DNA of 32,745 nt from a virus: positions 1 to 32,745 of the IMG/VR virus record IMGVR_UViG_3300042472_000278; one strand, 5' to 3'. Under the pieces are notes generated by a model, which saw only the letters and a program-made list of their open reading frames with translations, had not been told where the DNA came from and searched no databases. Each line of letters starts with the position of its first letter. The first letter of the stretch is position 1. A program made the translations under genes and the position numbers. Positions 1,419 through 18,069 of this stretch are shown here, piece after piece.

Positions 1419-1566
1419 TTCTTATCGCTTTTATCTTTCTAACTCCTTGCTTATAACTTCCTATAATAGTAGTTTCAATTTTAAACTTTCCTTTTGCTAT
1501 ATCAATGAATTCACTTTGTCCGTAAAAATCTGATATTTGTAATAGTTGAATTAGTTGTGCTATCAT
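1408..1566 (-). CDS. Small protein of the tail operon, 52 residues
   Basis: An ATG at 1566 overlaps the stop of the 788-residue gene (ATGA). The frame runs to a TAA at 1408, 11 bases inside the tape measure gene. The protein begins MIAQLIQLLQISDFYGQSEF and ends in a basic stretch rich in Lys, Arg and Ile. I recognise no family. The overlaps on both sides suggest coupled translation with the hub and tape measure genes, so a minor tail role or a role in tape measure folding is possible, but this is inference. Confidence 0.65.
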   Translation of the reverse strand: MIAQLIQLLQISDFYGQSEFIDIAKGKFKIETTIIGSYKQGVRKIKAIRNGY

Positions 1567-4984: not shown

Positions 4985-5493
4985 TTCTTTGGATTTTGTA
5001 TTGTGTATTTAAATAAGTCTAAAACTTCTAAACCGAACTTTTCAACTAATTCGTCGGGTAAAGTTTTAAATGCTGCTTCAAATGGTTTAGTCAAAAATAA
5101 ACTTGGTTTAATTCCATTGTTAAATATGCTTCGTGCAATTAAAAACTGTAAAGACTTACGACTGATAAAGTTTCCTTTCTTATCTCTTGGAGCTATACCT
5201 TTCCTAACTATCCATTTATCTAATTTGCTTGGTGGAGGCATCTTTGATTTATATGAATAAGGTGTGTTGTATTTTACTTTTTTACCACTTACCCCCTTAT
5301 CTTGAAAGTGTCCGTACTCCTCCATTTCAATAGACATTTCAAAAGAGTTAGTAGATACTTTCACATTACCTTTTAAGCTATCATATAAAGTCTTTGTGCT
5401 ATTCTTTTTTAGACGTGTTAAGTTTGTACGTGCTTCTTTAACTACGTAGTCTGTAAATCGTTTTAACTCCTTTTGAATCGCATCGTTTAACAT
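4981..5493 (-). CDS. HK97 gp10-like tail completion protein
   Basis: This 170-residue basic protein begins MLNDAIQKELKRFTDYVVKE, with the alpha-helical start and Lys/Arg-rich middle common to the HK97 gp10 / minor tail completion family. Around residues 55-70 it has the EYGHFQDKGVSGKK segment, matching the conserved 'Y(A/G)xxxExG' type region of that family. The C-terminal half contains a PSLFLTKPFEAAF segment, the helix usually found near the end. In other phages the family acts at the head-tail interface, completing the tail or joining it to the connector. It overlaps the genes on both sides by a few bases. Confidence 0.65.
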   Translation of the reverse strand: MLNDAIQKELKRFTDYVVKEARTNLTRLKKNSTKTLYDSLKGNVKVSTNSFEMSIEMEEYGHFQDKGVSGKKVKYNTPYSYKSKMPPPSKLDKWIVRKGIAPRDKKGNFISRKSLQFLIARSIFNNGIKPSLFLTKPFEAAFKTLPDELVEKFGLEVLDLFKYTIQNPKK

Positions 5494-5942
5494 ACTGTCA
5501 TATCAGGAAAAAAGTTAATATCTAAAGTCATTGTGCAACCAGCGATATAATTCTCAAAGCGTTCCTCAAATGGTTCAACTGTTGGCGTACCGTCTACAAT
5601 ATAACCGCTATCAACTAAACTACCATGTCTTAATTGTTGGTATAATCTATTTAAAGTTAGTAAAGCAGTATTAATAACATATTGCTTATTATCGTTACCT
5701 TTAAATACATCCGTAACTTCTTTCTTTGACAAGTCGACAACATCCATTGCAAGTATAGAAAGGTTACACTTAATTACATTGTCAACAAATTGGAATGAGT
5801 TAACTATAATATGCGACAAAGGGAACATAGTTACTTTAGCTAAATCAATATCGAATAAACTTCCCTCTGTTACCGTATTAACAAATTCATCAGCTTCTAA
5901 CTGTGTACGAATTGCGTCTATTATTTGTAAGTGTCCTTTCAT
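5487..5942 (-). CDS. Probable tail terminator/completion protein
   Basis: This 151-residue protein begins MKGHLQIIDAIRTQLEADEF. It lies between the tail assembly chaperone and the gp10-like protein. The overall pattern (N-terminal helix, then strands, with GSLFDIDLAKVTMFPLSHI around residues 27-45) resembles tail terminator proteins that cap the tail tube. The ATG overlaps the stop of the frameshifted chaperone reading (ATGA), which links its translation to the frameshift product. The function is inferred from position and length, since the sequence alone is not diagnostic. Confidence 0.5.
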   Translation of the reverse strand: MKGHLQIIDAIRTQLEADEFVNTVTEGSLFDIDLAKVTMFPLSHIIVNSFQFVDNVIKCNLSILAMDVVDLSKKEVTDVFKGNDNKQYVINTALLTLNRLYQQLRHGSLVDSGYIVDGTPTVEPFEERFENYIAGCTMTLDINFFPDMTVC

Positions 5943-6193
5943 TCCTTAAATATTTCTTGTCTTTGTTTCTTATAAGTTAACCAGGTTAAGCATTGATGAA
6001 TGGAAAGTTTTGTGACTTCATCGAATCTTCTAACATCCCCTTGAGCGAGTTCATATATGCTTGTATACCATCCCCATTGCTTTGCAAATTGAGTTGTTCC
6101 ACTAAAGTCGCCTGTTGTTTCTTGCTCATCTTCTTCATTTCCGTTTCCAAAAAGGTAGGAATAGCTTTCAACAATTGTTGACCTAAACTCCAA
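5939..6193 (-). CDS. Frameshift extension (gpT-like) of the tail assembly chaperone
   Basis: This 84-codon frame overlaps the chaperone gene in the -1 frame and has no ATG at its head. Its first codon would be TTG. Its sequence contains AKQWGWYTSIYELAQGDVRR and SIHQCLTWLTYKKQRQEIF, the pattern usual for the T part of such chaperones. It is therefore most likely made only by a -1 slip on the T9 run, giving 163 residues of the chaperone start plus about 84 of this frame (about 247 in all). Its stop overlaps the ATG of the next gene (ATGA), whereas the unshifted frame stops 43 bases earlier. This fits real translation to the end. It should not be annotated as an independent gene. Confidence 0.75.
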   Translation of the reverse strand: MEFRSTIVESYSYLFGNGNEEDEQETTGDFSGTTQFAKQWGWYTSIYELAQGDVRRFDEVTKLSIHQCLTWLTYKKQRQEIFKE

Positions 6194-6681
6194 AAAAAAA
6201 CCTGTGCCGCAAGTACAATTGAAAGTGGTGCATATTGCATTACTTCGGAATAGTTTAAAGCACTTTGATAAGGTTCTATTTCGTACTTGTCGCCTTTCTC
6301 TTTAACGATTGGTCTGTACATAACCGCCATAGCTTTGTGTAACGTGTTAACGTCTTGAAGATACTTCTCTAAATCGATATACTCGCCACTTGTAATATTC
6401 TCTAAATCGGTTATAAATCCAAACTCAACATTCTGAATTTTGAATCTAGTTTTAAATTTATTCTTTGCTTTGAATAAAGTGTTAAAATGATTTGTAAGGT
6501 TTAAAATATCCTTTTGCTTTATCTTAACTATCTCTTTTAATTCAATGCCACAAAACCTTTCGACTAATCTTTGCCCTATATAATCTTCATCTTCACTTCC
6601 TTTCACATCGTCAACGAATTGCTGATAATGTAACAAAGGAACTTCATTCAAACTTTCGGGAATAATTAACTCTAATTTCAT
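5986..6681 (-). CDS. Tail assembly chaperone, short (gpG-like) form
   Basis: This 231-residue protein begins MKLELIIPESLNEVPLLHYQ. It is mostly helical, with the segment HKAMAVMYRPIVKEKGDKYE near residues 115-135 that recurs in Bacteroidota phage proteins of this position. It has no membrane signal or enzyme motif. A second reading frame overlaps its last 208 bases and continues past its stop. At 6192-6200 there is a run of nine T, read GTT TTT TTT TGG in this frame. That arrangement matches the G/GT tail assembly chaperones of lambda-like siphophages, where a fraction of ribosomes shift by -1 to make a longer form. Both forms bind the tape measure protein during tail assembly. It lies directly after the large terminase gene. 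Confidence 0.7.
   Translation of the reverse strand: MKLELIIPESLNEVPLLHYQQFVDDVKGSEDEDYIGQRLVERFCGIELKEIVKIKQKDILNLTNHFNTLFKAKNKFKTRFKIQNVEFGFITDLENITSGEYIDLEKYLQDVNTLHKAMAVMYRPIVKEKGDKYEIEPYQSALNYSEVMQYAPLSIVLAAQVFFWSLGQQLLKAIPTFLETEMKKMSKKQQATLVEQLNLQSNGDGIQAYMNSLKGMLEDSMKSQNFPFINA
6193..6199 (-). promoter_or_regulatory. Programmed -1 ribosomal frameshift slippery heptamer
   Basis: Read on the minus strand, the chaperone frame is GTT TTT TTT TGG, which contains the classic heptamer T TTT TTT in the correct phase. A slip of one base back leads into TTG GAG TTT, the start of the overlapping T frame. Codon starts of the two frames differ by -1 (6192 against 6193). I did not find a clear stimulatory stem-loop by eye. 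Confidence 0.7.
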
Positions 6682-6712
6682 ATTATTTAAACGTTTAATT
6701 TTATTATTTGTA

Positions 6713-7921
6713 TTATCGTATAAAAGGTAAGCTATTTTGGTTTTCGTTTATTTGATAAGTTACCGCATAACGTAAAGCATCTAAAGCGTGGTTATATTTA
6801 TCAATAGGCGTTTCACTCTTTTTTTCTAACCAGCAATAGTTGTTTAACTCTTTAATTAAGTCTATACTACTTTCGTCTATTACTAAATCGTAATCTTGAA
6901 TTAATGCAATACCGAATCTAACTGAATCAGCACCTTTAACAGCAGGTTCAATATTAAGTCCCCTATCTTGTAACTCGTTTATTAATCTAGGTTCTGCACA
7001 ATCAGCAATTATCAATGAATCGTTAGCAAATGTTTTGTTAAGTTCATACACTTGTGAAGTGGTTAAGTGTGTTTGATAAATATGTAACCTTACATAGATT
7101 ACTTTTTTATCCGTATCTATTGACGTTTCAATTAATGTTGTCGGGTCATTACTAAACCCAAAATCCTGGCCAAATATACTTGGATTAACTTCTATAAACT
7201 CGCCTACTTTCCAATTGGTAAATATTACACCCTCTGCTTTATCTAACCAACCCCCTAAAATAGTATGCTTATACTTTTCAGGTCTGCGTTTCTTTACGTC
7301 TTTTATTTGATTTAAGAAACTTTCAGAAAGGTTTTCGATATTGTCTTCGTATGTTGTATGAATAAACGTTGTGTCGCCCTTTTCAATATTGCTTCCCGCT
7401 TCAACTCCTTTTGCTTCAAAGAACTTTTGATAAATAAAATGCTCTTTCGTTGCAGGATTTAAGACTAATATAACTCTATTCTGTTTTAGTTGACTACGAA
7501 TAGATAAATCAATCTTATCAAATACGTCCTCGTCTGTTAACTCCTCTGCTTCATCTAGTACCCACGTCGTTACACCTGACAATGATTTAAGGTTAGCCGT
7601 TTGATTACCACTAGAAGTCTTTAAACCTCTAAACAATATCTTTGAACCCGTCTTTAAATTTACTATTTCATCCTTTGTTATATAGAAATCGTTTTGCAAT
7701 CCAGCCAATTCAATCTTCTCAATGAACTCTGGAATAATTGAAACGTGAGCAGATGTTAAAGTATATCTAGTAAATAGTATAACGTGTCCGACTTCGTAAG
7801 TTAGAAGCTCTAAAAATACTGTTAAACCAAATGATTTACCACTACCACGACCACCCGTAATTACATAGTAACGTGAATCACTTGCAAATAATGGAATATA
7901 CTTTTTATTTAAACTTAACAA
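6713..7921 (-). CDS. terL: Terminase large subunit
   Basis: TerL is the ATPase-nuclease motor that packages DNA into the prohead and cuts it. This 402-residue protein has Walker A GGRGSGKS at residues 23-30 and Walker B plus catalytic Glu in VLDEAEE at 121-127. The C-terminal RNase H-like nuclease has LIIADCAEPR in the middle of the domain and NHALDALRYAV at 377-387. Length is normal for the family. The frame has no ATG before the Walker A motif. The most likely start is the TTG at 7921, which overlaps the small terminase end by 17 bases and suggests coupled translation. Confidence 0.95.
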   Translation of the reverse strand: MLSLNKKYIPLFASDSRYYVITGGRGSGKSFGLTVFLELLTYEVGHVILFTRYTLTSAHVSIIPEFIEKIELAGLQNDFYITKDEIVNLKTGSKILFRGLKTSSGNQTANLKSLSGVTTWVLDEAEELTDEDVFDKIDLSIRSQLKQNRVILVLNPATKEHFIYQKFFEAKGVEAGSNIEKGDTTFIHTTYEDNIENLSESFLNQIKDVKKRRPEKYKHTILGGWLDKAEGVIFTNWKVGEFIEVNPSIFGQDFGFSNDPTTLIETSIDTDKKVIYVRLHIYQTHLTTSQVYELNKTFANDSLIIADCAEPRLINELQDRGLNIEPAVKGADSVRFGIALIQDYDLVIDESSIDLIKELNNYCWLEKKSETPIDKYNHALDALRYAVTYQINENQNSLPFIR

Positions 7922-8171
7922 GTTCCTTAATATTGATGTCGTTTATAGTAATATTATTATCTACTGTTTCTTTTGGTTTGCCACAACCGTATTCAATTAG
8001 AATCTTTGCACTTGCTATTCTATCTGTTGGTCTTTTAGTTTCGTCTATCATTATTTCTGCAATAACTCTAAACGCATCTTGTACGTGTGGTTGTGCTAAA
8101 GTGAAACCTTTTATTTCATCTGACAAACCTTTGCGACCTGAACCCTCTCTTTTACCTCCGTGTGTACTCAT
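7905..8171 (-). CDS. Probable terminase small subunit
   Basis: This 88-residue protein begins MSTHGGKREGSGRKGLSDEI. The GGKREGSGRK stretch is common at the N-terminus of small DNA-binding phage proteins encoded just before large terminases. A helical region follows (IAEIMIDETKRPTDRIASAK) consistent with an HTH or oligomerisation core. It is short for a small terminase. It overlaps the TTG start of terL. The role, recognising phage DNA and loading TerL, is inferred from place and from the N-terminal motif. Confidence 0.65.
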   Translation of the reverse strand: MSTHGGKREGSGRKGLSDEIKGFTLAQPHVQDAFRVIAEIMIDETKRPTDRIASAKILIEYGCGKPKETVDNNITINDINIKELVKFK

Positions 8172-8195
8172 TTTGAAATCTCTTGATTAGTCAAG

Positions 8196-8432
8196 TTAAT
8201 TAACAACTTGTGCCTCTGGTATATCTTCTGTAAACATTCTTACAAAGTCATCCTTTGAAATTATTGTAACTTCATCTCGTTCACTTTCCACATTGAACAC
8301 CTTGTAACCTTTGTAGTGTTCTTTATTGTAGAATGCTAAACCAAAGCAAAGCAAATAAAACTCTTTTTTCTTTTGCTCTTGTGGAATCTTTTTAATTAGC
8401 TTCTTAAATGTTCTTTCTATTTCTAAACTCAT
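8196..8432 (-). CDS. Unrecognised small protein, 78 residues
   Basis: The protein starts MSLEIERTFKKLIKKIPQEQ and ends in IPEAQVVN. The middle holds YLLCFGLAFYNKEHYKGYKV, which is mildly hydrophobic but not a convincing membrane helix. Its ATG overlaps the stop of the preceding gene (ATGA). I recognise no family. It is part of the short gene string between the sigma-like gene and the terminases and is probably co-transcribed with them. Confidence 0.7.
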   Translation of the reverse strand: MSLEIERTFKKLIKKIPQEQKKKEFYLLCFGLAFYNKEHYKGYKVFNVESERDEVTIISKDDFVRMFTEDIPEAQVVN

Positions 8433-8683
8433 TTAATTATTTGTTTTAACATTTTCTTTAAAATTAAGTATTCTCTTTTACTTAATATTTTTTCTGGAAT
8501 CATTGTATAACTATTTTCGTTATGCTTATGTATCCTTATAATTAAATCTTCTTTTAGTGCTTCTAATTCACTTCTAAGTATTCCATTTTCATATTTAAGC
8601 GTAGAAAGTTCTATTTCTGTTTTATTAAACATTATAACAAAATCATTAAAACCAATGTCTTTTACTTTAGTTTTCATATTCAT
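8429..8683 (-). CDS. Small coiled-coil protein, 84 residues
   Basis: The protein begins MNMKTKVKDIGFNDFVIMFN. Residues about 20-50 have a heptad-like pattern (NKTEIELSTLKYENGILRSE) pointing to a coiled coil, and the end is basic (KKMLKQIIK). A second ATG two codons in (8677) is an equally possible start. It overlaps the genes on both sides. I recognise no family. Function is unknown. Confidence 0.65.
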   Translation of the reverse strand: MNMKTKVKDIGFNDFVIMFNKTEIELSTLKYENGILRSELEALKEDLIIRIHKHNENSYTMIPEKILSKREYLILKKMLKQIIK

Positions 8684-9056
8684 TATATATTTTTTGCATA
8701 TTACCTATGAATTCTCTCCAGCATGAACCACATTGAGTAGGCTCTTCTTTAACTCCAAACACTCTATTGTATATCGTTAAGAATTTAATTTGTTCACTTG
8801 GATTAATTGCCTCTCTATGTTTAACCTCAAAGAAGTTTGTTAAAAAGTTGTATTCATCCTCAACTAAACAAGATAATTTTTTGTAAGGGAATAATTTATT
8901 TAGTTTCTCTTTACGTTCATCACATTTACAGTCATCACCTGCAATAAACTTTACTAATGCTTTTATTCCTGTTGCAGTAGTTATCTTTTCAATAGTATCC
9001 CCTAATCCTTTAGACGCTTCTATTTGTTCTTTTGTTCTTCTTACTCTCTTTGCCAT
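8667..9056 (-). CDS. Cys-containing protein found near terminases in Bacteroidota phages
   Basis: This 129-residue protein begins with a basic stretch MAKRVRRTKEQIEASKGLGD. It contains two cysteine groups: CKCDERKEKLN near residues 43-53 and CGSCW near 112-116. The pairs CxC and CxxC could bind one metal ion. I recall similar proteins beside terminase genes in other Bacteroidota phages, always without an assigned role. A part in packaging or late regulation is possible, as it is encoded immediately after the sigma-like gene and before the terminases. Confidence 0.65.
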   Translation of the reverse strand: MAKRVRRTKEQIEASKGLGDTIEKITTATGIKALVKFIAGDDCKCDERKEKLNKLFPYKKLSCLVEDEYNFLTNFFEVKHREAINPSEQIKFLTIYNRVFGVKEEPTQCGSCWREFIGNMQKIYNEYEN

Positions 9057-9061
9057 TTTAC

Positions 9062-9601
9062 TTATATTAATTCGTAATCCTTATTCAAATAATCTTCATA
9101 GCTTTCGCCTACATTCTCTCTTAACTTTTGCTTACACCTCTTTAACGTTGTAAATATAGTCATGTAATGAATATTAGACTTTTCAGCTATTTTCCTTATA
9201 CTTAACTTTCTCTCGGTATAAATATCAAACGTTAATTTGTCGAAAGGGTGCCAATTTAAAGTTTCTTCGTTTATCTTTAACTTTATATTCTCGTAGGCTT
9301 CTTGTTCATCTAAAGTGCTTTCTTCATCTGTTAAGAATCTACATTCGTCAATCGGTAACTTCTTTTTAATTAAAACCTTTTTGTACCTATCAAAGTCGCC
9401 ATGTAACGTTCTTAACATCATGTAAACATATGAACGGTTAACTTTACCATTGTTAACGCATTTATCGATATGGTTACATCTAATTACTTTCATGTACATT
9501 TCTTGCACTATGTCTTCGCTGAATGTATGCTCTCCAAACTTTTCAACTATTGCTACCCATTGTTTATGTTGAGCAGCTAGTATGTTAATTTGATTTACCA
9601 A
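9062..9601 (-). CDS. Phage RNA polymerase sigma factor-like protein
   Basis: This 179-residue protein resembles small ECF-type sigma factors. An N-terminal region carries EDIVQEMYMKVIRCNHIDKC (region 2-like, residues about 29-48). A C-terminal helix-turn-helix carries LSIRKIAEKSNIHYMTIFTT (region 4-like, about residues 133-152). A sigma factor would direct host RNA polymerase to chosen promoters. The gene stands directly before the packaging and structural genes, so late-gene activation is the natural guess. No ATG occurs before the conserved part. The best start is TTG at 9601, which overlaps the stop of the upstream 37-residue gene (TTGGTAA). Confidence 0.7.
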   Translation of the reverse strand: MVNQINILAAQHKQWVAIVEKFGEHTFSEDIVQEMYMKVIRCNHIDKCVNNGKVNRSYVYMMLRTLHGDFDRYKKVLIKKKLPIDECRFLTDEESTLDEQEAYENIKLKINEETLNWHPFDKLTFDIYTERKLSIRKIAEKSNIHYMTIFTTLKRCKQKLRENVGESYEDYLNKDYELI

Positions 9602-9708
9602 AACAGACGTAAAAATTGTTCAAACATCATTACTTTATTAGCACCTTTTAAGTACATTCCGTAAACTATCTTTCGAGCTTTCTTTGGTAGTTGCTTACTT
9701 CGTTTCAT
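9595..9708 (-). CDS. Small basic protein, 37 residues
   Basis: The ATG at 9708 overlaps the stop of the upstream gene (ATGA), and the TAA at 9595 overlaps the TTG start of the sigma-like gene. The protein begins MKRSKQLPKKARKIVYGMYL and ends in FEQFLRLFW. It is rich in Lys and Arg. No family is recognised. The tight overlaps on both sides make it likely to be translated and to couple translation into the sigma-like gene. Confidence 0.6.
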   Translation of the reverse strand: MKRSKQLPKKARKIVYGMYLKGANKVMMFEQFLRLFW

Positions 9709-9890
9709 TTCTTTGTTTTAAAATCTTTGTAGAACTTCAAAATGTGTAAGTACATCTGTTGCATTTGTTCACTCTCATCATACCAAAGCATACAAGTTTT
9801 GTGAACATCCTGAAACGTACCGTAGTCTGTTATTATCCAACGTCTTAACGGTAGCTGTAAAATTTGTTTAAGAAGCTCTCTGTTTTCCAT
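9705..9890 (-). CDS. Small protein, 61 residues, behind a probable leaderless promoter
   Basis: The protein begins MENRELLKQILQLPLRRWII and ends KDFKTKK. It is helical and mildly basic, with no recognised family. A TATATTTG element ends only four bases before its ATG, so transcription should begin at or very near the start codon. It is the first gene of a unit that continues through the sigma-like gene towards the terminases, and may act early in the switch to late expression. This last point is inference. Confidence 0.65.
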   Translation of the reverse strand: MENRELLKQILQLPLRRWIITDYGTFQDVHKTCMLWYDESEQMQQMYLHILKFYKDFKTKK

Positions 9891-9894
9891 GAAG

Positions 9895-9902
9895 CAAATA
9901 TA
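9895..9902 (-). promoter_or_regulatory. Bacteroidota promoter -7 element (TATATTTG), leaderless
   Basis: TATATTTG on the minus strand matches the Bacteroidota consensus TAnnTTTG. It is followed by CTTC and then the ATG at 9890, leaving no room for a 5' leader. No clear TTG -33 element is seen at the usual distance. Confidence 0.55.
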
Positions 9903-9912
9903 ATAATCTTTT

Positions 9913-10047
9913 TTAATTTGAATCTATTTCTTTGTTTTTTTCTTCAATGTATATCTCAAGCATCTGCTCAATACTTGCACCTAAATACTTTTCGCCATTT
10001 TCTCTAAACCACATAAAGAAGTTTTTTAATGTTTCAAATTCGTTCAT
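9913..10047 (-). CDS. Small acidic protein, 44 residues
   Basis: The frame starts with ATG at 10047, overlaps the end of the upstream gene by 14 bases, and stops with TAA at 9913. The protein begins MNEFETLKNFFMWFRENGEK and ends in EEKNKEIDSN. It is probably the last gene of the unit that starts at 15294, as the next promoter follows at 9902. No family is recognised. Confidence 0.6.
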   Translation of the reverse strand: MNEFETLKNFFMWFRENGEKYLGASIEQMLEIYIEEKNKEIDSN

Positions 10048-10273
10048 TTTCTATAAATTTTATTACTTGTTCTTTTGTTTCAAATTTAACTATCTCATAC
10101 TTATTAATTTCAAAGTTAAAATAAATTACTGATAAATCTTTAATTGACTGCTCTAGGAAGCATTGTTTACAACTTATACATCTACCTTTGTCTGCTTTAA
10201 CTTGGTACTTTCTATTATTTATTTGATAGGCTTCTAATGGTTTTTCAATCTTACAGTAAAAACATTTCTTCAT
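10034..10273 (-). CDS. Small zinc-finger-like protein, 79 residues
   Basis: The protein has two Cys pairs: CFYC at residues 4-7 and CISCKQC at about 32-38. The spacing (CxxC, about 24 residues, CxxCxxC) suggests a single zinc-binding knuckle of the HNH-adjacent type often seen beside phage endonucleases. The C-terminal half (FNFEINKYEIVKFETKEQVI) has no recognised motif. It follows ninG. Nucleic acid binding is plausible, not shown. Confidence 0.65.
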   Translation of the reverse strand: MKKCFYCKIEKPLEAYQINNRKYQVKADKGRCISCKQCFLEQSIKDLSVIYFNFEINKYEIVKFETKEQVIKFIENERI

Positions 10274-10309
10274 GTTAAATTTTTTTAATTTTCTTTACAC
10301 GTTTTAATT

Positions 10310-10828
10310 TCATGTAAAGTCTTTTATCTTTTGTTTATACGTTTCTATTAATTGTTTTAGTTCATCTACTGTAAACTTTCTTGTTAATTGTGAATCTACA
10401 GTTAATTTTTCAAATGCTTCATAACCTATTTTTTTAACTAGATTTTCACGATACTTTAAAAGATTACCATGTAAGAAAGTGTTGCAGTATTCACATTGTA
10501 AATTTACGTTGTTTTCGTCAAATCTAACGTTAAAATGTCCACCAGCTGAATACATATGACCAGCATTTTCTTTTAATGCTTTCTTATCACAACTTATACA
10601 ATTTTTTCCTTTATCCCTTAAACGAATATATTTATTAAATACTTGTTGAGCTAGTTTTAAATAGTCTTGAACGGTTAATAAATCTTCTTTTGCTTTCTTT
10701 TTCTTTTCGTTCCATGCTTTCAACTTTGTTTGTTCTGCAAAGTGTTTTATACATTCATCGTTTACCATGCAGTATTTTTGATTAAACCATTTAGGCTCAA
10801 ACTTTTGTTTACATTGTTTACATCTCAT
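10310..10828 (-). CDS. ninG: NinG/Rap-type recombination endonuclease
   Basis: NinG (Rap) is a Holliday junction/branched-DNA nuclease of lambdoid phages. This protein starts MRCKQCKQKFEPKWFNQKYC with an N-terminal zinc finger, followed by a basic helix. A C-terminal HNH-like core follows, with CISCDKK, then AGHMYSAGGHFNVRFDENNV, then LQCEYCNTFLHGN, the pattern of the family. I choose the ATG at 10828, which overlaps the methyltransferase stop (ATGA). An ATG five codons upstream (10843) is possible. It is a common replication-associated gene in Bacteroidota phages and acts in recombination or replication fork processing. Confidence 0.85.
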   Translation of the reverse strand: MRCKQCKQKFEPKWFNQKYCMVNDECIKHFAEQTKLKAWNEKKKKAKEDLLTVQDYLKLAQQVFNKYIRLRDKGKNCISCDKKALKENAGHMYSAGGHFNVRFDENNVNLQCEYCNTFLHGNLLKYRENLVKKIGYEAFEKLTVDSQLTRKFTVDELKQLIETYKQKIKDFT

Positions 10829-11871
10829 AACTTTGATAACCATTGTTTGTAAATCTGTTCTGCTATTTTACCAGTCATTAAAGGAGGGACTGACATTCCG
10901 ATTAAATATTCAGGTTTTAATTTTAAAAAATTATAATCCATAGGATAGCTTCCAATTAAACAATATTCATATTTATTTAATGGCCTACAAACTTCTGAAT
11001 GATAAGTATAGTTAGTTTGTGCTGGAATAGTATTTGCAACTTTTTCATTTGATAATCTAATCCAATTAAAAAAACTACCATTAGCAACTGTTGAAAAACT
11101 TTGTCCAGGTTTTGTTAAATGCCAATATTTTAAAGCTGTTGCAGTTGTATTAGCATCTTGAATATTATCTGTTTGTTCATCTATTTCTTTAAATGGTATT
11201 TCTTTTTCATTAAAATTTAATTCAAGTTTCGGCAATTGTATAAACATATCTACAGCTTCCATAAATTTAGGTGCTAAATCTTTGCGTAAAGCAATAAAAA
11301 ACACTCTTTCTCTACGTTGTGGCACTCCCATTTTAGAGGCATTCAATAGAAAGTGTTGACACGTATAACCTGCTTCATCAAATGCTTTGTAAATTTCAAT
11401 TACATATTTTTTCGCTTCTCCTAATAGCAAACCTTTTACATTTTCAGCAACTACTACTTTAGGCTGCAATTCTTTTGCAAGGTCTATAAAGTCAAAAAAT
11501 AGAGTATCTAAAACTTGCAACTCCTGACCTTCACGAAACTTTTTTTCTTTTCCCCAATCCTTTTCACGATTACCAGCCATACTAAACGAGCTACAAGGTG
11601 GCGAACCATCTAATATATCCAATTCATACAATTCTTTAGGTAAATCTTTACGCTTTGAAAAGGTTGTAATGCTTTCTAAATAGCTAAATTTCGGATTATG
11701 ATTTTCTTTGTAAACCTCTACCATTTTTGGGTCAATATCATTGTGACCTATTACATCAAATCCAGCTAATTTGTAACCCATTGTTGAACCACCACCACAA
11801 GCAAAACAACTAAATACTTTCCCTTTATCTTTTGTGAAGTTTGCCTCACTTAATTTCCAATTATAATACAT
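10825..11871 (-). CDS. DNA cytosine-5 methyltransferase
   Basis: This 348-residue enzyme adds a methyl group from S-adenosylmethionine to C5 of cytosine. Motif I is FSCFACGGGSTMGYKLAGF from residue 20. Motif IV is DGSPPCSSFSMAG with catalytic Cys93. Motif VI is AENVKGLL (142-149). Motif VIII is QRRERVFF (185-192). Motif X lies near the end in PPLMTGKIAEQIY. All key residues are present, so it should be active. There is no cognate restriction gene of known type next to it. It probably protects phage DNA from host restriction. It overlaps ninG and is co-transcribed with the replication genes. Target sequence cannot be told from sequence alone. Confidence 0.95.
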   Translation of the reverse strand: MYYNWKLSEANFTKDKGKVFSCFACGGGSTMGYKLAGFDVIGHNDIDPKMVEVYKENHNPKFSYLESITTFSKRKDLPKELYELDILDGSPPCSSFSMAGNREKDWGKEKKFREGQELQVLDTLFFDFIDLAKELQPKVVVAENVKGLLLGEAKKYVIEIYKAFDEAGYTCQHFLLNASKMGVPQRRERVFFIALRKDLAPKFMEAVDMFIQLPKLELNFNEKEIPFKEIDEQTDNIQDANTTATALKYWHLTKPGQSFSTVANGSFFNWIRLSNEKVANTIPAQTNYTYHSEVCRPLNKYEYCLIGSYPMDYNFLKLKPEYLIGMSVPPLMTGKIAEQIYKQWLSKL

Positions 11872-11882
11872 ATTATTTTTTT

Positions 11883-12149
11883 TTAAAGTTCTCTAATAAA
11901 ATCGCAATCGTTATCTAAAAAATTCAAGTGTATTCCTATTTCATCCCCAAAAGCAAAACTCCAAACTATTAACTCGTTTAATTCGTCTGATGTCATATCT
12001 AAAGTTGAAACATTAGGATTAAAACCAGCATACTCTTTTAAAAATCTATCTACTTCTTTAATAGTTTTTGAATCTCTTAACTCTATTAATCTTGTGTGTA
12101 TCTTTTCAAGGCAAATACCTTTGTAGAATTTAATTAATCTTTTGTTCAT
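11883..12149 (-). CDS. Unrecognised protein, 88 residues
   Basis: The protein begins MNKRLIKFYKGICLEKIHTR and ends acidic (DNDCDFIREL). It looks helical and soluble, with charged faces and no signal peptide. I recognise no family. It lies between two replication-unit genes, 11 bases before the methyltransferase and one base after the 95-residue protein, so it belongs to the same operon. Confidence 0.7.
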   Translation of the reverse strand: MNKRLIKFYKGICLEKIHTRLIELRDSKTIKEVDRFLKEYAGFNPNVSTLDMTSDELNELIVWSFAFGDEIGIHLNFLDNDCDFIREL

Positions 12150-12150
12150 C

Positions 12151-12438
12151 TTATTTGCTTATTGTGGCTCTTACTTCTTCGCCTAGTTGTTTTCTTAATT
12201 TATATTTATAACCTCTTAAAGTTTCGTTTTCCTCTTGTAAGCGTTGGCGACATCTTCTTATCGTTTCTGGACTTGTTAACTCTCCATTTATTAACATATC
12301 TAAAAAGTCTTTTTTATCTTCTATATTGCATGAATCTTCAGACCATATAATTGATATTAATAATCTATCACAATCTTTAGCATCTTTGTTTACTTCTAAA
12401 ATACTTTTTACTCTTTGTTTTACTTCGTTGTTAATCAT
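12151..12438 (-). CDS. Conserved small phage protein, 95 residues
   Basis: The protein begins MINNEVKQRVKSILEVNKDA and contains the pattern SPETIRRCRQRLQEENETLR followed by GYKYKLRKQLGEE. I recall this pattern from proteins encoded beside primase-helicase genes in many Bacteroidota phages, but none has an assigned function. The RR.R..LQEE segment suggests a nucleic-acid-binding or helicase-contact helix. This is inference. Confidence 0.7.
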   Translation of the reverse strand: MINNEVKQRVKSILEVNKDAKDCDRLLISIIWSEDSCNIEDKKDFLDMLINGELTSPETIRRCRQRLQEENETLRGYKYKLRKQLGEEVRATISK

Positions 12439-12608
12439 TTCTCTATTTGTTTTAATTCGTCAATAGTACTAATTATTTTGTAAGGTTGTGCTACTATAAA
12501 GCCACAAAAACTTTTTTCTAATCTTATCCAACCTTTAATAAAGTAAATATTATTACCTATTACTTCTTTGTGAAATCCGTTTTCTTTTAAATATTTTTCT
12601 GTTAACAT
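12435..12608 (-). CDS. Small protein, 57 residues, after the primase-helicase
   Basis: I choose the ATG at 12608, giving MLTEKYLKENGFHKEVIGNN, ten bases after the primase-helicase stop. An upstream TTG/ATG pair at 12635-12630 would add nine residues inside that gene and looks less likely. The pattern 'KYLKENGF…FIKGWIRL' is one I associate with short proteins of unknown function in Bacteroidota phages and prophages. The end overlaps the next ATG (ATGA). Confidence 0.65.
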   Translation of the reverse strand: MLTEKYLKENGFHKEVIGNNIYFIKGWIRLEKSFCGFIVAQPYKIISTIDELKQIEK

Positions 12609-12618
12609 ATCTTTATTT

Positions 12619-14388
12619 TTAAAATGGTGCATCAAATTCTGTATTCGGTTTTATTGAATCAAATACTTCATATTCATCTATTACTTTTGATTTCTTTTTA
12701 ATCAAAGATTGATTAGTATTTAAACAACCGTCAACATAAAATCTTCTATTATCATTATTCCAATTGAACTTTGTTGAACTTGTTATTTTACCTTGAAAAT
12801 CATATTTCGTTTTTAAATTAATAACCATTGTGCAACCTGGTTCAATATCGTTTCCAAATTCTCTATAAACACACAAACCGTTATGTGTTTGATTTCTAAA
12901 ATCTGATGAACCACTTACAGAATATAAATCAGGAATATCATATTTACCCGTCTTTTCGTGTTTCTTCATCTTTGTAGGGTGTGCAACTAAAAATACATGA
13001 ACATTGTACTGAATACAAAATGAAGTTAATCTAGTTAATATTTGGTCAATTCCATCTTTACCCTGAAATCCTTTAGGCATTAACACTTTATTCCATGCGT
13101 CAATTATAAACATATTAATACCGAATGTAAACATTTGCTCTTTAAACTTTTCAAGTAACCAATCCCAATCAGGTGTTATGCTTTCTTCTGATGTTGTAAA
13201 ATATAGTTTCTCTTTACTCCATTCTGTATATTGATAAAGTTCGTTTTCAGTCATTTTATTTTTACCAAAGAAAGGTTTACCAACTGTTAAAGAAGCATAT
13301 TTTGAATTATATAAACCTAATGGATTATGTTCGGGGCTGAATATTGATAATTTATAGTCGTAATCATTTGCAATATTTAAAGCGTACCAATCTACAAAAC
13401 TACTTTTACCATGTGATGGAATACCTGTTACAACTGTTAATTGTCCCATCATTATACTAAAGTCTTTTTCAAAACCTCTAAACATTTCATTCTTTGGAAA
13501 TATTGTTTTTGGCATTCCCTCGTTATAAAGTCTTAAAGTTTCATCTAATAAGTCTAAAGTATTGAATGTTCCACCAATTGGAAAACGTTTTTTGTTGTTT
13601 ATAGAATCTTTGATTTTGGACGTTTTTAAATCATCGTTGGCATCTTTACCTATCCACTCAATAAAAGTGCATCTAAAACGACCTAAACGGTGTGAAATCT
13701 TATTTCTAACGTCAATACCTTTCTCATCATTATCTACTGCAATAATAAAATGCTCTATTTCTTTTAAATACTTTTCTGAATTAATCCAATAGTCATCATT
13801 ATCATTTGCTCCGTTAGGTAAAGAAATAACATTTTTAAATCCTGCTTCGTACATTGCTAAAACATCAAATTCTCCCTCAACAATGTAAACTTCTTTTTGA
13901 CCAATAATTGAATTTATATTATAAAATATTGGTTTACCTCCAGTATGTTGTGTGAATTTCTTATCTGATGAACGGTATTTTTTGTTAACTACTATTTCGC
14001 CCTCAAAATAATTAAATGTAATTGCGTTTTGTTTCTTCTGAACTTGTGGAAAATATATTTCTTCTTCTGATATTCCAAAATAATTTAAAGTTGTTTGACT
14101 AATCATCCTTTCACTCCAACACCATTTAACCAATTTATCAGATAATTGAGTATAATTTTTCCATTCTTGGGTTGGGTAAGTATATTTAGTTTGAATCTTA
14201 TCTAAATTACTTTCTCTAAATGTTAATGCTTCACAATAAAAACATTTTCCAATTCCAGAGTTGTGGTCTATTTTTAATGATTTATCTCTCTTATCTGTTC
14301 TAACCTCATCGCATTTAGGACATCTTATTGATTCTTTACCACTTAATTTTTTTAAGTCTAAAGTATTCCATTCTATAAAGTTGCTCAT
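12619..14388 (-). CDS. Replicative primase-helicase (T7 gp4-like)
   Basis: This 589-residue protein joins priming and DNA unwinding. A zinc finger comes first (Cys23, Cys26, Cys49, Cys52, with 22 residues between the pairs). A Toprim domain follows, with EGEFD at 171-175 and the DxD-type metal site VDNDEKG at 218-224. A RecA/DnaB-like helicase domain follows, with Walker A TGIPSHGKSS at 321-330 and a Walker B-like MFIIDAW about 100 residues later. The order and length match phage gp4-like bifunctional enzymes. It overlaps the helicase loader stop by one base (TAATG), consistent with joint action at the fork. All key motifs are intact. Confidence 0.93.
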   Translation of the reverse strand: MSNFIEWNTLDLKKLSGKESIRCPKCDEVRTDKRDKSLKIDHNSGIGKCFYCEALTFRESNLDKIQTKYTYPTQEWKNYTQLSDKLVKWCWSERMISQTTLNYFGISEEEIYFPQVQKKQNAITFNYFEGEIVVNKKYRSSDKKFTQHTGGKPIFYNINSIIGQKEVYIVEGEFDVLAMYEAGFKNVISLPNGANDNDDYWINSEKYLKEIEHFIIAVDNDEKGIDVRNKISHRLGRFRCTFIEWIGKDANDDLKTSKIKDSINNKKRFPIGGTFNTLDLLDETLRLYNEGMPKTIFPKNEMFRGFEKDFSIMMGQLTVVTGIPSHGKSSFVDWYALNIANDYDYKLSIFSPEHNPLGLYNSKYASLTVGKPFFGKNKMTENELYQYTEWSKEKLYFTTSEESITPDWDWLLEKFKEQMFTFGINMFIIDAWNKVLMPKGFQGKDGIDQILTRLTSFCIQYNVHVFLVAHPTKMKKHEKTGKYDIPDLYSVSGSSDFRNQTHNGLCVYREFGNDIEPGCTMVINLKTKYDFQGKITSSTKFNWNNDNRRFYVDGCLNTNQSLIKKKSKVIDEYEVFDSIKPNTEFDAPF

Positions 14389-15062
14389 TATATTGAAAGT
14401 TTACTTAATAAATACTGCATATCTGACATATTATCTTCTGGTTTAGTTTCTGCTGGTTCATCATTCCAACACTCTCCATTTAACCAAGTTTTTGGTAATT
14501 TTCTATATTTAATATCAGGAGTTGATTTAATATAATTTGGTAAAACTACTTTAATTTTTTCTTTTACCTCATATGAAAGTTTATTAAATTTATCTTCACA
14601 TATTTTACGGTCATTTTTTTTATCATAAGTTTGCCAAAACCAATCAAAAGATATTGTTTCTTGTTTTATTGTTATATTGTTAATAGGTTTATCTATACAT
14701 ACAATGTCGTGGACTTGCTTTTGATTATGCTTTTGCAATGCTTTGTCTAGTGCTTTTGTATTTGCTTTTGTATTTTTTGCAATAGCAATTATGTTGCTTG
14801 AATATTGATTTTTTGATTTTTGTATTAATTTAATAAAACCCCAATCAATTAAATCATTTAATGTATTTGAAAATGTTCTATAATTTTTTATTCCAATAGC
14901 ATCTTTTGTCATTTCCATAGGTAACCCAAATTTTTCTTTCCACCCTAAACGATTACAATGTTCTATTATAAAAAAATACATTGCACTATGATTTGGATTT
15001 ATTTTTTCTGGATTCTCAAAACACCAATCGAACCAAGTTCGTGAAAGTTCGTAACTATTCAT
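14388..15062 (-). CDS. Replication initiator / helicase loader-like protein
   Basis: This 224-residue protein starts MNSYELSRTWFDWCFENPEK. The N-terminal 100 residues form a winged-helix-type segment (MTKDAIGIKNYRTFSNTLND, then LIDWGFIKLIQKSKN) common to replisome organisers. A variable linker follows. The C-terminus has FDWFWQTYDKKNDRKICEDK and LPNYIKSTPDIKYRKLPKTW, the usual end of DnaD/DnaT-like loaders. It lies next to the primase-helicase, which it would load at the origin. The start overlaps the stop of the preceding gene. Confidence 0.75.
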   Translation of the reverse strand: MNSYELSRTWFDWCFENPEKINPNHSAMYFFIIEHCNRLGWKEKFGLPMEMTKDAIGIKNYRTFSNTLNDLIDWGFIKLIQKSKNQYSSNIIAIAKNTKANTKALDKALQKHNQKQVHDIVCIDKPINNITIKQETISFDWFWQTYDKKNDRKICEDKFNKLSYEVKEKIKVVLPNYIKSTPDIKYRKLPKTWLNGECWNDEPAETKPEDNMSDMQYLLSKLSI

Positions 15063-15294
15063 ATGTATTTATTCTTTCATTTATAAAATCTAAAAAATCA
15101 CTTTTACTTTTAGTAAGAAATATATCTTTCATTTGACTATATAAATAAATCCTACCTAATAATATTTTACCTAATTCATCTTTTAATTCTATTGGTAATT
15201 CAAATTGCTCTAATACTAAAACAATGTAAGTAGATGGTAAATCTTTTAATTTTACTCCCTTATATTTACCAAAAGGGAAAACTTCGTAATACAT
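15055..15294 (-). CDS. DUF3820-like small protein
   Basis: The protein has PFGKYKGVKLKDLPSTYI at residues 7-24, the signature of the DUF3820 family (FGKYKG..L.dlP..Y), here in a 79-residue protein. Members are often encoded near phage exonuclease or replication genes and have no firm function. It is the first gene after the structured RNA at 15308-15404. Its ATG is about 15 bases past the terminator's U-run, so its expression probably depends on read-through or on that RNA. Confidence 0.75.
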   Translation of the reverse strand: MYYEVFPFGKYKGVKLKDLPSTYIVLVLEQFELPIELKDELGKILLGRIYLYSQMKDIFLTKSKSDFLDFINERINTYE

Positions 15295-15307
15295 AATAAT
15301 TAATTTT

Positions 15308-15404
15308 TAATAAAAAAGCCAAGCTAATAGGTGCGTGAGATAACCTATTAAGCCTGACTTATTTGTTGTTGTTATAAAATTTCTTTGGAAGTTCTCACGC
15401 TTCG
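15308..15404 (-). ncRNA. Structured small RNA or attenuator leader with complementary hairpin loops
   Basis: A consensus promoter (TTG, 17 bases, TATATTTG) ends at 15410, so a transcript should begin near 15404. It carries no plausible reading frame. Its 5' end folds GAAG(CGTGAGAA)CTTC (15389-15404). The middle is unpaired and A-rich. The 3' end is a long hairpin (15316-15360) with a 10-base loop TATCTCACGC followed by a T-run. The two loops are complementary over seven to eight bases (GCGTGAGA with TCTCACGC), which is GC-rich for such AT-rich DNA. It could be a stand-alone regulatory RNA or a leader that attenuates the replication genes. The family is not recognised. Confidence 0.65.
15311..15360 (-). 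terminator. Strong intrinsic terminator at the end of the structured RNA
   Basis: Arms 15343-15360 and 15316-15332 pair over 17 base pairs with two G-U pairs and one bulged base. The loop is 15333-15342. Six T on the minus strand follow. It would stop transcription just before the DUF3820-like gene at 15294. Confidence 0.85.
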
Positions 15405-15409
15405 TTATG

Positions 15410-15439
15410 CAAATATAATAAACTTTTTTAAATACAATA
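15410..15439 (-). promoter_or_regulatory. Bacteroidota promoter (TTG-N17-TATATTTG)
   Basis: The minus strand carries TTG, 17 bases, then TATATTTG at 15417-15410. Both the -33 and -7 elements match the Flavobacterium/Bacteroides vegetative consensus and spacing. It is the best promoter in the window. It drives the structured RNA. Confidence 0.75.
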
Positions 15440-15505
15440 CTTTTTTATTATTTTTTTTAAAATGTTATATAAATAATACTTTTACGTATAATAATAGATT
15501 AAATG

Positions 15506-15721
15506 TTATAAAAACAATTCATTTTCGTAAAGTAGTTCATGTAGTTTAGTTCTTACTTTTTCAGCTAATTCAATTTCGTTTCCATTTTCTGAATGCTTAT
15601 ACATATTACGGTAATAGTTATCTAATTCGACAACTAGCATTCTCCATTTAAAACCGTTCATGCAGTCTTTTATTTCGTCTGCATCTTCAAAACTATCGAA
15701 CTCTAATATTACTTTACTCAT
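15506..15721 (-). CDS. Unrecognised small acidic protein, 71 residues
   Basis: The protein begins MSKVILEFDSFEDADEIKDC and ends HELLYENELFL. The segment MNGFKWRMLVVELDNYYRNM is followed by a charged helix. I recall similar proteins in other Bacteroidota phages without function. It overlaps the upstream gene by 8 bases. It ends about 70 bases before the promoter of the structured RNA, with no clear terminator in between. Confidence 0.7.
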   Translation of the reverse strand: MSKVILEFDSFEDADEIKDCMNGFKWRMLVVELDNYYRNMYKHSENGNEIELAEKVRTKLHELLYENELFL

Positions 15722-15914
15722 GTTCTATTTCTATTTCTACTTCATAACCTAATTTATTCAATGTGAATTTCAAAGCATCTTCAACGTTATCCCCTGAATA
15801 TTCATTTTCGCATTTTTCTCCATTTACTTCAATGCTTACACCATAATCATAGCAACAACCATCGCCACAAGTATAGTCCCAATTTCTTAATATTATTTTT
15901 ACTTTTTTACTCAT
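15714..15914 (-). CDS. Small Cys-containing protein, 66 residues
   Basis: The protein begins MSKKVKIILRNWDYTCGDGC, with three cysteines in CGDGCC near residues 16-21. This may bind a metal. The rest is acidic (VEIEIEHE at the end). No named family is recognised, though the pattern recurs in phage genomes. It is preceded by the 21-base direct repeat at 15917-15969. Confidence 0.7.
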   Translation of the reverse strand: MSKKVKIILRNWDYTCGDGCCYDYGVSIEVNGEKCENEYSGDNVEDALKFTLNKLGYEVEIEIEHE

Positions 15915-15916
15915 TT

Positions 15917-15969
15917 TTTTAAGGTTATATGTTTAAATTTTATTTTTATTTTAAGGTTATATGCTTAAA
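15917..15969. repeat. Direct repeat of 21 bases, two copies 32 bases apart
   Basis: TTTTAAGGTTATATG(T/C)TTAAA occurs at 15917-15937 and 15949-15969 (20 of 21 bases identical). One copy contains the stop codon of the metallophosphoesterase gene, the other lies just before the ATG at 15914. Minus-strand copies read CATATAACC. Confidence 0.8.
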
Positions 15970-17083
15970 AAAGTGTCGTTAATCGTGCCACTTGTCCAAA
16001 TTCTTTATGAAAAATGAACCCCTCAATAGCTAAAGGCGAATGTTGGTATCCTGATTTATGATGCCAACTATCTGCTGGACTTGGACTTCTTAAAGACTCT
16101 ATTTGAACGCTCATAATGTCTTTACTTGTTTTGTGGTGTATATGGTTTGTAAACCAATAACGGTGTTTACATTTATGCCAAAATTCACTTGCTTCATGAC
16201 ACATAAGCAAAGGTAAATCATTTTGCTTTGCACCGTCCCCGTGTGTTGTACCGATAATATTTTGACCGTAGATTGAATATTTTCTATGACTTGGCGACCT
16301 ATTAAATTCAATATTTGGGTGGTTATTATACCATGAATATAAACTATCCATTAAGAAAAAACCTGACATTTCATCATGATTAGATACGTTGTAAACAACT
16401 TCTAAATCTGCAATAGATACAAGTGTTTGAATTATATCAATATACAATTGTTTAGCCATTAAGAACGCTGAAAACCATTTTTCGTGAGAATCTTGCTGCG
16501 TTCCTTTCGTTGTTTGTCCTTTGGTGTTGTCGGTGTTTAGTATATCGTTACCAACTATTAATATAATTTTATCAATGTTGAATCCCTCCGATTTTTTTAT
16601 TATACTCGCAACTGCATCTCTAACTCTTTGTACTGCAATTTGTGAGTTGTACTCTTGACCTGTTTCAAAAGCATCACATAACTTATTTATATGTACATCA
16701 CTAGGCGAAATAAATAAACAATGTGAATCCTCATCTGATTTATTTCTTATTATTTGAATATGGTTAGGTCTTAAATCTTTTACGCTACCTATAAAATCTT
16801 CTTTAAAATCTTCGTAGTTAAATATATTGTTTTCCCCTTTAACATTGATTGAGTAGTTTTTTCCTTTATACCAATAATGTTTTACTTTTTCGGGGTCTAT
16901 TCCTACTTTATCGCATTCGTCTAATATACCTTTGTCAACTCTAGTGCTGATTAATTTAGATATACTTCTTCGTTTATTATCATTAAATTCAATATTTAAT
17001 TCTTTGCACATTAAACGAGCAGTTTCCCGCTTTGAGTTGTTGGAACTGTATAATTCCATTATTCTGTCGATATTCTCAACCAT
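15965..17083 (-). CDS. Calcineurin-like metallophosphoesterase
   Basis: This 372-residue protein has the five motifs of the calcineurin-like fold: DVH at 129-131, GND at 178-180, NHDE at 235-238, HGD at 281-283 and NHIHH at 313-317. Such enzymes use two metal ions to cleave phosphoesters, and in phages are often DNA nucleases related to SbcD/Mre11 or act on nucleotides. Two motifs deviate slightly: SNHD instead of GNHD and NHxH instead of GHxH. About 120 residues precede the catalytic fold and include a possible HTH (RETARLMCKELNIEFNDNKR), which suggests DNA binding. It follows a terminator, so it needs its own promoter, not identified here. Substrate unknown. Confidence 0.85.
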   Translation of the reverse strand: MVENIDRIMELYSSNNSKRETARLMCKELNIEFNDNKRRSISKLISTRVDKGILDECDKVGIDPEKVKHYWYKGKNYSINVKGENNIFNYEDFKEDFIGSVKDLRPNHIQIIRNKSDEDSHCLFISPSDVHINKLCDAFETGQEYNSQIAVQRVRDAVASIIKKSEGFNIDKIILIVGNDILNTDNTKGQTTKGTQQDSHEKWFSAFLMAKQLYIDIIQTLVSIADLEVVYNVSNHDEMSGFFLMDSLYSWYNNHPNIEFNRSPSHRKYSIYGQNIIGTTHGDGAKQNDLPLLMCHEASEFWHKCKHRYWFTNHIHHKTSKDIMSVQIESLRSPSPADSWHHKSGYQHSPLAIEGFIFHKEFGQVARLTTLF

Positions 17084-17102
17084 AAACTAATTAATTAATA
17101 CA

Positions 17103-17136
17103 TAAAAAAAGCAACGCTAACTTAATAACGTTGCTA
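17103..17136 (-). terminator. Intrinsic terminator after the early small-gene operon
   Basis: The minus strand folds GCAACG (17134-17129) with CGTTGC (17116-17111) over a 12-base loop, followed by seven T. It lies after the 35-residue gene and before the metallophosphoesterase. Confidence 0.75.
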
Positions 17137-17159
17137 AATTAAATATTTTTATTAACTAA

Positions 17160-17267
17160 TTACTTTTTAATTAATTCTTTTATCTTTTTATCTATTTCTT
17201 TTTTCTTTTTATCACTTACATATAATTTGCAAGTTTCTAAAGTTTTAATTAAATATTCAAATTTCAT
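17160..17267 (-). CDS. Small Lys-rich protein, 35 residues
   Basis: The ATG at 17267 overlaps the end of the preceding gene by 11 bases, and a TAA lies at 17160. The protein begins MKFEYLIKTLETCKLYVSDK and then is almost entirely Lys, Glu and Ile. It is the last reading frame before the terminator at 17103. No family is recognised. It may be genuine given the overlap, but low-complexity AT-rich DNA can produce such frames by chance. Confidence 0.5.
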   Translation of the reverse strand: MKFEYLIKTLETCKLYVSDKKKKEIDKKIKELIKK

Positions 17268-17649
17268 GTTCTTTCAAGTATAAATCAATTAAAAATTTTG
17301 TTTTTTCTAAATCTTCTTTAAAGTTTCCTTTCTTACGACATCTTATCACTCGCTTAATAATATCAAATTCATATGAATTAAGCTGTTTTTCTTCGCTAAA
17401 CTTATAAAGTGAACCTTTGCTATTATCGTAGTGTTTAGGTGTCTTTAAATCGATTGTTTCTACTTCTGTTTTATATCCGTAATCTCCAGGTTCAGAATAA
17501 AACGAATATTGTGAACTATCAAAACTAGTTCCGTAATAATTAATCGGATAGATTATACTATCACTTTCTATTACTGTACCCGTAAATTTGTCTTTGTTAA
17601 GTCTAGTTACTTTAACTTTAAACTTTAATTCTTTGTGTATTCCAATCAT
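17257..17649 (-). CDS. Unrecognised protein, 130 residues
   Basis: The protein begins MIGIHKELKFKVKVTRLNKD. The first 60 residues have beta-strand character (TGTVIESDSIIYPINYYGTS) and the last 40 are helical and basic (RRKKGNFKEDLEK type; the sequence shows IIKRVIRCRKKGNFKEDLEK). The C-terminus resembles helices seen in short phage early proteins. The ATG overlaps the stop of the 94-residue gene (ATGA). Function unknown. Confidence 0.65.
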   Translation of the reverse strand: MIGIHKELKFKVKVTRLNKDKFTGTVIESDSIIYPINYYGTSFDSSQYSFYSEPGDYGYKTEVETIDLKTPKHYDNSKGSLYKFSEEKQLNSYEFDIIKRVIRCRKKGNFKEDLEKTKFLIDLYLKEHEI

Positions 17650-17930
17650 TTGTCTTCTGTTATTATTAAATTATCAATAAAAAATTGTTTTAGTAAAATG
17701 TATATTTCGCTTTGTTGGTCAATAGCTTCTAAACTTGCTGAACCTATTAAAACGTTGTCGGTATTTCTAAATTTCTTCATTAATGTTCTAGCATTGTTAA
17801 CCATATGCTTATCAAAAATATCACGTCTAATAGTTGTATTATCAATTAAATCCTCTAAAATATCAGAAATAAAAGGTAATAATATTGACGTTGCAACTAG
17901 TTTTTGGTTTATTGTTAAATTCTTAATCAT
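17646..17930 (-). CDS. Unrecognised helical protein, 94 residues
   Basis: The protein starts MIKNLTINQKLVATSILLPF, with a weakly hydrophobic N-terminal helix not long enough to call a membrane anchor. It continues as charged helices and ends FFIDNLIITEDK. It overlaps the genes on both sides. I recognise no family. It belongs to the early small-gene operon. Confidence 0.65.
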   Translation of the reverse strand: MIKNLTINQKLVATSILLPFISDILEDLIDNTTIRRDIFDKHMVNNARTLMKKFRNTDNVLIGSASLEAIDQQSEIYILLKQFFIDNLIITEDK

Positions 17931-18069
17931 TTTCTTCGTTATTTACGTACCAACCACAACACTTTTTACTTACTGCAAACGCTTTAAAATCCTTTCTAAA
18001 GAACCTTTGCTTTCTTATCATGGCTCTTGACCATTCTTTAATTATTATTCTTTTACTTTTTTTATTCAT
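17923..18069 (-). CDS. Small basic protein, 48 residues
   Basis: I take the ATG at 18069, giving MNKKSKRIIIKEWSRAMIRK, because the ATG at 18114 lies 53 bases inside the upstream gene and adds an unlikely stretch. The protein is strongly basic, with two neighbouring Cys (KKCCGWYV) near the C-terminus. It overlaps the upstream stop and the downstream start. No family is recognised. The basic charge suggests nucleic acid binding. Confidence 0.55.
   Translation of the reverse strand: MNKKSKRIIIKEWSRAMIRKQRFFRKDFKAFAVSKKCCGWYVNNEEND

Follow-up and report, generated by a model that had tools for sequence, protein, structure and literature searches.

A kissing-loop leader RNA in front of replication genes of Bacteroidota phages, with a putative role in gene control

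The window analysed here is the whole 32,745-nt stretch of IMG/VR virus record IMGVR_UViG_3300042472_000278. It carries a putative leader on the minus strand, with every part read inside 15308-15439, in front of replication genes. The features are:

15410..15438 (-): Bacteroidota-type promoter, exact match to TATATTTGC (sequence reading)
15438-15435 (-): promoter -33-like ATTG, followed by a 17-nt spacer
15417-15410 (-): promoter box TATATTTG (sequence reading)
15388..15403 (-): 5' hairpin, GAAG - loop CGTGAGAA - CTTC (MFE fold; retained in relatives with a different loop)
15393..15400 (-): kissing strand 1, GCGTGAGA (8-mer search and covariation in relatives)
15361..15387 (-): single-stranded A-rich linker CAAAGAAATTTTATAACAACAACAAAT (unpaired in the MFE fold)
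within 15361..15387 (-): conserved linker core AAAGAAATT (kept in relatives)
15316..15360 (-): terminator hairpin, 17 pairs, 10-nt apical loop TATCTCACGC (MFE fold; equivalent and T-rich tail in relatives)
15333..15340 (-): kissing strand 2, TCTCACGC (8-mer search and covariation in relatives)
15312..15317 (-): T-run of the intrinsic terminator, six T (sequence reading)
15055..15294 (-): first gene after the leader, 79 aa, weak QSregVF_b / DUF3820-like match
14388..15062 (-): replication initiation / helicase-loader protein (phrog_270)
12619..14388 (-): DNA primase/helicase (phrog_239, Toprim)

CATAAC sits between the TATATTTG box and the 5' hairpin, and the ATG of the 79-aa gene lies 17 nt past the T-run. 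The order of promoter, leader, GC-containing hairpin with T-run and start codon fits the layout of an intrinsic-terminator leader (attenuator), transcription being inferred. The leader RNA is likewise inferred to be ~95 nt long and to end in this terminator; neither its transcription nor its termination has been observed.

Between window positions 1408 and 32185 all large ORFs lie on the minus strand, and the GC skew is unidirectional over the whole contig, so the window resembles a single long block of phage genes transcribed in one direction. The remaining TATATTTGC promoters in the window (9902 and 22529) have no comparable leader. A search of the minus strand from the leader down to window position 1 turned up no significant intrinsic terminators. 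A clean intrinsic terminator (17110-17135, minus strand; 10-pair stem and T-run) lies upstream of the gene at 15965-17083 and is the strongest in window 1-18000 apart from that of the leader. The idea that the element is an origin of replication was rejected, as the GC-skew extremes lie elsewhere.

The predicted fold of the minus-strand RNA had an energy of -22.0 kcal/mol (z = -3.8; 0 of 200 shuffles were as stable), and the MFE structure consisted of exactly both hairpins together. The terminator arms are AAGTCAGGCT.AATAGGT and ACCTATT.AGCTTGGCTT around the apical loop, with one bulged base. Complementarity between the loops extends over 8 nt, stem-closing G included, and stops short of the terminator stem (by inspection only; alternative folds were not searched systematically). 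In the 32.7-kb window the GCGTGAGA 8-mer is confined to the two loops (expected 0.14; 0 of 100 shuffles had two). Covariance models of Rfam 15 gave no match in the window at gathering score and only chance-level matches at a relaxed threshold. An initial annotation, made without database searches, had described a promoter, two hairpins and complementary loops at 15308-15439, which held, on the minus strand. Its 17-pair terminator stem with two G-U pairs and its view that no known RNA family is present also held, as did the sequence features of its transcript of ~97 bases, with transcription itself not observed. Its claim that a loop match of 7-8 bases is unlikely by chance was supported both by the 8-mer search and by the probability (~0.0009) that loops of 8 and 10 nt with the window's composition share 7 or more complementary nt.

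The first relatives were IMG/VR neighbours of the window's primase. In two of them (L004 and L005) the RNA is near-identical to that of the window, and seven others (L006, L016, L017, L007, L009, L015 and L081) have the same layout with other loop pairs. The pairs in these primase-neighbour relatives were CTTGGAC/GTCCAAG, CTGGAC/GTCCAG, GCATCGGAA/TTCCGATGC, GGTCTCAC/GTGAGACC and GAGTCTCA/TGAGACTC. Scans of the collection with loop-independent patterns (promoter, linker or T-run only) added, for example, CATCCTAC, GTCGCAG, GCTTCTCAC, GTAGCAG, GTCGAAG and GGTGGTGCGT. The element is now represented by ~45 distinct copies with ~36 different loop sequences, each having its own partner over 7-10 nt. 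They come from IMG/VR contigs and from isolated phages of Cellulophaga (phi19:1, phi10:1 and phi18:3), Tenacibaculum (JQ and Gundel_1) and Flavobacterium (11b, snusmum6-1, hattifnatt9-1 and elemoA). Snusmum and hattifnatt each have three leaders with differing loops; Gundel_1, L081, L121, L120 and L145 have two each. At the same locus, that of the second leader, snusmum has GTGGAACG/CGTTCCAC and hattifnatt GTGAGACG/CGTCTCAC, amounting to two compensated substitutions. Between L006 and L016 (GCTTGGAC versus GCTGGAC), a one-base change in length is paired in both loops. We regard both differences as recent paired changes.

So far the element has been found in Bacteroidota phages, plus one small contig of a genome in the Flavobacterium-family search. 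A pattern scan of 84,980 bacterial genomes gave 48 matches and no convincing element. When 397 family-level and 395 phylum-level genomes were searched with a covariance model (R2), one match was obtained, in a small-contig MAG. These R2 searches scored just 10 candidates per genome, so that absence from genomes is weak evidence and copies in prophages or hosts are not excluded.

A promoter-based scan with loose loop criteria found as many matches in real as in reversed sequence, and a stricter descriptor was therefore needed. The descriptor (TAnnTTTG, 5' hairpin, terminator stem, T-rich tail and a loop match of at least 7) matched 70 times in 2.5 Mb versus 7 times in the reversed sequence. The matches represent 44 distinct elements, among which 36 different kissing sequences occur. 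The GC content of the kissing strands averages 58% and that of their contigs 30%. A BLAST match at 11906 of FCL-2 was rejected for want of a kissing pair; unlike it, site 37483 of FCL-2 satisfies the descriptor. Because the descriptor itself demands complementarity, a loop-blind version was also run. Here, 28 of 37 distinct candidates had at least 6 complementary loop nt, a level reached by 5% of swapped and 4% of shuffled loops. The other nine look like chance structures, except L006, in which the wrong hairpin was picked. A loop-blind scan with the linker variant AACTTAAANANATT returned mostly unrelated DNA whose loops lack complementarity, which makes it useful as a negative control.

We aligned 15 elements by a single geometric rule, setting the first 8 nt of loop 1 against the last 8 nt of loop 2. 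Standard pairs filled 99.5% of the cells, and changes on both sides were seen in 24 of 25 pairs and in 8 of 8 kissing pairs. Slid controls paired at 36-43%, and shuffles were also far lower. As a caveat, the elements for alignments A4 and A5 were hand-cut to equal block lengths, with 11-nt loops trimmed to 10 and the linker of L015 shortened by a few bases; A4 omits two of 12 candidates because they would have required padding. Independent support came from model R2, which was built without kissing pairs and recovered kissing members outside its training set, namely phi19:1, L121, the second L145 copy, snusmum 13655, L246, the second Gundel_1 copy, L274 and L332. We conclude that the loop-loop pairing is real, because a change in one hairpin tip is matched in the other as viruses differ. 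Prediction and covariation show that the element comprises two hairpins and a kissing helix with compensatory changes. The initial annotation would have been refuted by a lack of conservation or covariation of the loops; that test was run, and covariation across the ~45 elements speaks strongly against refutation.

The window meets the family criterion of a 5' hairpin loop complementary (at least 6 nt) to the terminator loop. In the relatives, the TAnnTTTG box ends 0-8 nt upstream of the 5' hairpin (15 in one case) and the 5' stem has 4-6 bp. The linker is AACUAAAGAAAUU or one of the variants AACUUAAAAAUAUU and UUAAAAACAUUA; a strict pattern finds the A-rich linker (AAAGAAATT-like) after the 5' hairpin in 36 of 46 elements, the window included. 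Terminator stems are mostly 10-12 bp long. All 43 listed elements have a T-rich tail, some of them poor as terminators (TTTCTTG in Gundel_1, TTTTAATTT in phi19:1). The window's element is of type A, with a GAAG/CTTC stem and without a tandem G-A loop. In type B the 5' stem is usually GTTNN/NNAAC, and the terminator stem continues into a 4x4 internal loop of tandem G-A and then 4-5 further bp, which are capped by a 10-nt loop. The internal loop occurs as UGAU/UGAU, UGAA/GGAU or GGAU/UGAA; examples are L015 5025, L009 1765 and L027 4909. Tandem G-A is present on both sides in 16 of 46 elements and on at least one side in 34 of 46. Since it is missing in the window's type A, it is a sub-type feature and not family-wide; within type B it is probably a recognition feature.

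Of 44 distinct elements, 42 have an ATG on the same strand 4-53 nt past the stem. The T-run and the position in cis before a start codon, without room for another promoter, are shown; the only routes into the gene are through the terminator or from a point further upstream. Most downstream genes encode replication initiators or DnaD-like proteins, helicases, primase, a small beta-type protein (phrog_33177; 60-95 aa), which heads the primase operon, or HNH endonucleases; one further class is an antirepressor. Because some members are followed by genes for HNH endonucleases or an antirepressor, the regulon extends beyond replication. In the isolated phages, replication genes lie downstream of the leader, which bears out the link to replication genes proposed initially. 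The gene order of phi10:1 and phi19:1 is that of the window (leader, small gene, 250-290-aa gene, primase/helicase), with an HNH gene after the 250-290-aa gene in phi19:1.

Two observations concern the genes behind the leaders. Free-standing NUMOD4/HNH-type endonuclease genes have their own kissing leader in L120 759 (minus strand), L238 13657, L029 9207 and L332 2803, with the ATG 8-11 nt past the stem in L120, L238 and L029, as if, possibly, a mobile gene had joined the regulon. A second motif, GGT(A/T)ATCT(T/A)AAAACC, which could form a small hairpin, was seen at L025 4523, L236 10470, L241 (minus strand, ~3050), L006 5088, L113 and L245 14463. Among the loci examined it is restricted to the interval between the leader T-run and a phrog_33177-like ATG, and it might be a translational operator.

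The kissing-loop leader is likely to be an undescribed gene switch, a function that we infer without transcription data. On balance we favour a leader that acts in cis, as an attenuator or antitermination site, and is held together by the kissing helix, with transcription and termination inferred and the direction of control undetermined. In this model, the 5' leader of the replication operon would fold co-transcriptionally over ~95 nt and terminate in the intrinsic terminator. The loop of the hairpin at the extreme 5' end pairs over 7-10 bp with the terminator's apical loop. The 5' stem, the kissing helix and the upper part of the terminator stem would then stack coaxially into a single rod, which the conserved A-rich linker would tie together. 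RNA polymerase would either halt after the leader, freeing a short RNA, or continue into the replication genes. The ratio of stop to read-through may be set by the kissing interaction together with a hypothetical factor reading the conserved linker and, in most relatives, also the tandem G-A internal loop. A single factor or state of the phage could act on more than one operon: snusmum and hattifnatt each have three leaders with different loops, and the loop letters would be free to drift while staying self-complementary.

Several points count against an attenuator. A terminator and a kissing hairpin could equally give a stable trans-acting RNA, the regulon extends beyond replication, some tails are poor terminators and no trans factor has been identified. 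The initial annotation had left control of the terminator, a sensor or pairing in trans as possibilities; the evidence favours control of the downstream gene in cis, and which way the kissing acts is unsettled.

In the literature searched we found no description of a kissing-loop leader. The nearest lead was HMP_4078 (PMC8040213), a 109-bp candidate RNA of Bacteroidetes that lies close to phage D5-type primase domains and is reported to be palindromic and to lack a predicted terminator. It resembles the leader in being a Bacteroidetes RNA near a phage primase; identity is neither supported nor excluded. Like attenuators and terminator-type riboswitch leaders, the element is a 5' leader whose intrinsic terminator lies a few nt upstream of the first gene. 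Unlike them, it has no alternative antiterminator pairing (by eye) and no recognised ligand pocket, and the terminator's partner is a loop-loop contact whose sequence covaries and is not conserved. ColE1 RNAI/RNAII and CopA/CopT are kissing antisense pairs with fully complementary hairpin loops of ~7-8 nt. In contrast, the two loops of the leader share one transcript, and no antisense transcript is implied.

A put-like processive antiterminator is a possible alternative. The nascent two-hairpin RNA would stay on host RNA polymerase, which would ignore pauses and terminators down the operon, the T-run site being merely the first terminator overridden. HK022 putL is a nascent, cis-acting RNA of two stem-loops just 3' of an early phage promoter (PMC9378689). 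The leader is similar in size (~70-95 nt) and has two stem-loops directly after a promoter, its early timing being inferred; several copies per phage each head a transcription unit. However, it has no sequence or Rfam link to put, and it has kissing loops, a conserved A-rich linker and a terminator as the second stem, any activity being inferred only. The relevant passages of PMC9378689 describe neither a T-run after the second stem nor a kissing loop in HK022 put. There is also nothing obvious to override, as no significant minus-strand terminators were seen downstream as far as window position 1. A bolder version, which we consider no more than possible, is that Bacteroidota phages encode an antitermination device in RNA that needs no protein. 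The nascent kissing two-hairpin leader might then contact Bacteroidota RNA polymerase and license read-through into the replication operon; if true, such a device would parallel put RNA but be differently organised and contain a terminator of its own.

Constitutive termination releasing a stable trans-acting small RNA or decoy is unlikely. End hairpins and kiss would protect such an RNA, and the A-rich linker would bind a target or protein. The promoter 0-8 nt upstream and the complete hairpin-to-terminator unit are consistent with this, and Bacteroidota have known sRNAs, bound by an RRM protein (PMC11697453). However, the near-constant place right before a start codon, without promoter room, is something a free sRNA gene does not need, and unrelated phages share the short, conserved linker. 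Still less probable is a leader acting only on mRNA stability or translation, in which a structured 5' end would block decay and the terminator-like hairpin would mostly fail. The 5' hairpin does lie within a few nt of the start site, and several tails are weak as terminators, but the T-rich tail right after a ~11-bp stem is a constant feature and a stabiliser has no need of loop-loop pairing into the terminator loop. A DNA-level reading, with the 8-mers as operator half-sites of a phage repressor, is very unlikely: they are inverted repeats ~60 nt apart beside a promoter, but they fall exactly in the apical loops of hairpins whose stems covary too, and they vary freely between close relatives yet remain complementary.

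The kissing-loop leader represents a structured RNA family absent from Rfam and backed by covariation in an intramolecular kissing helix; it occurs in Bacteroidota phages, cultured ones among them. Little is known about the timing of replication in Bacteroidota phages. That one phage can have the leader in front of several operons suggests a regulon, whose trigger is directly testable in existing phage-host pairs. The drifting yet self-complementary loops also offer structural biologists a naturally varied set of kissing pairs, with duplex energies across members of -8 to -16 kcal/mol. Two members detected by the model without kissing pairs, L252 (Gundel_1 16777) and L246, have 9- and 10-nt loop pairs (GTAGGATTC and AGCCTTCGAC).
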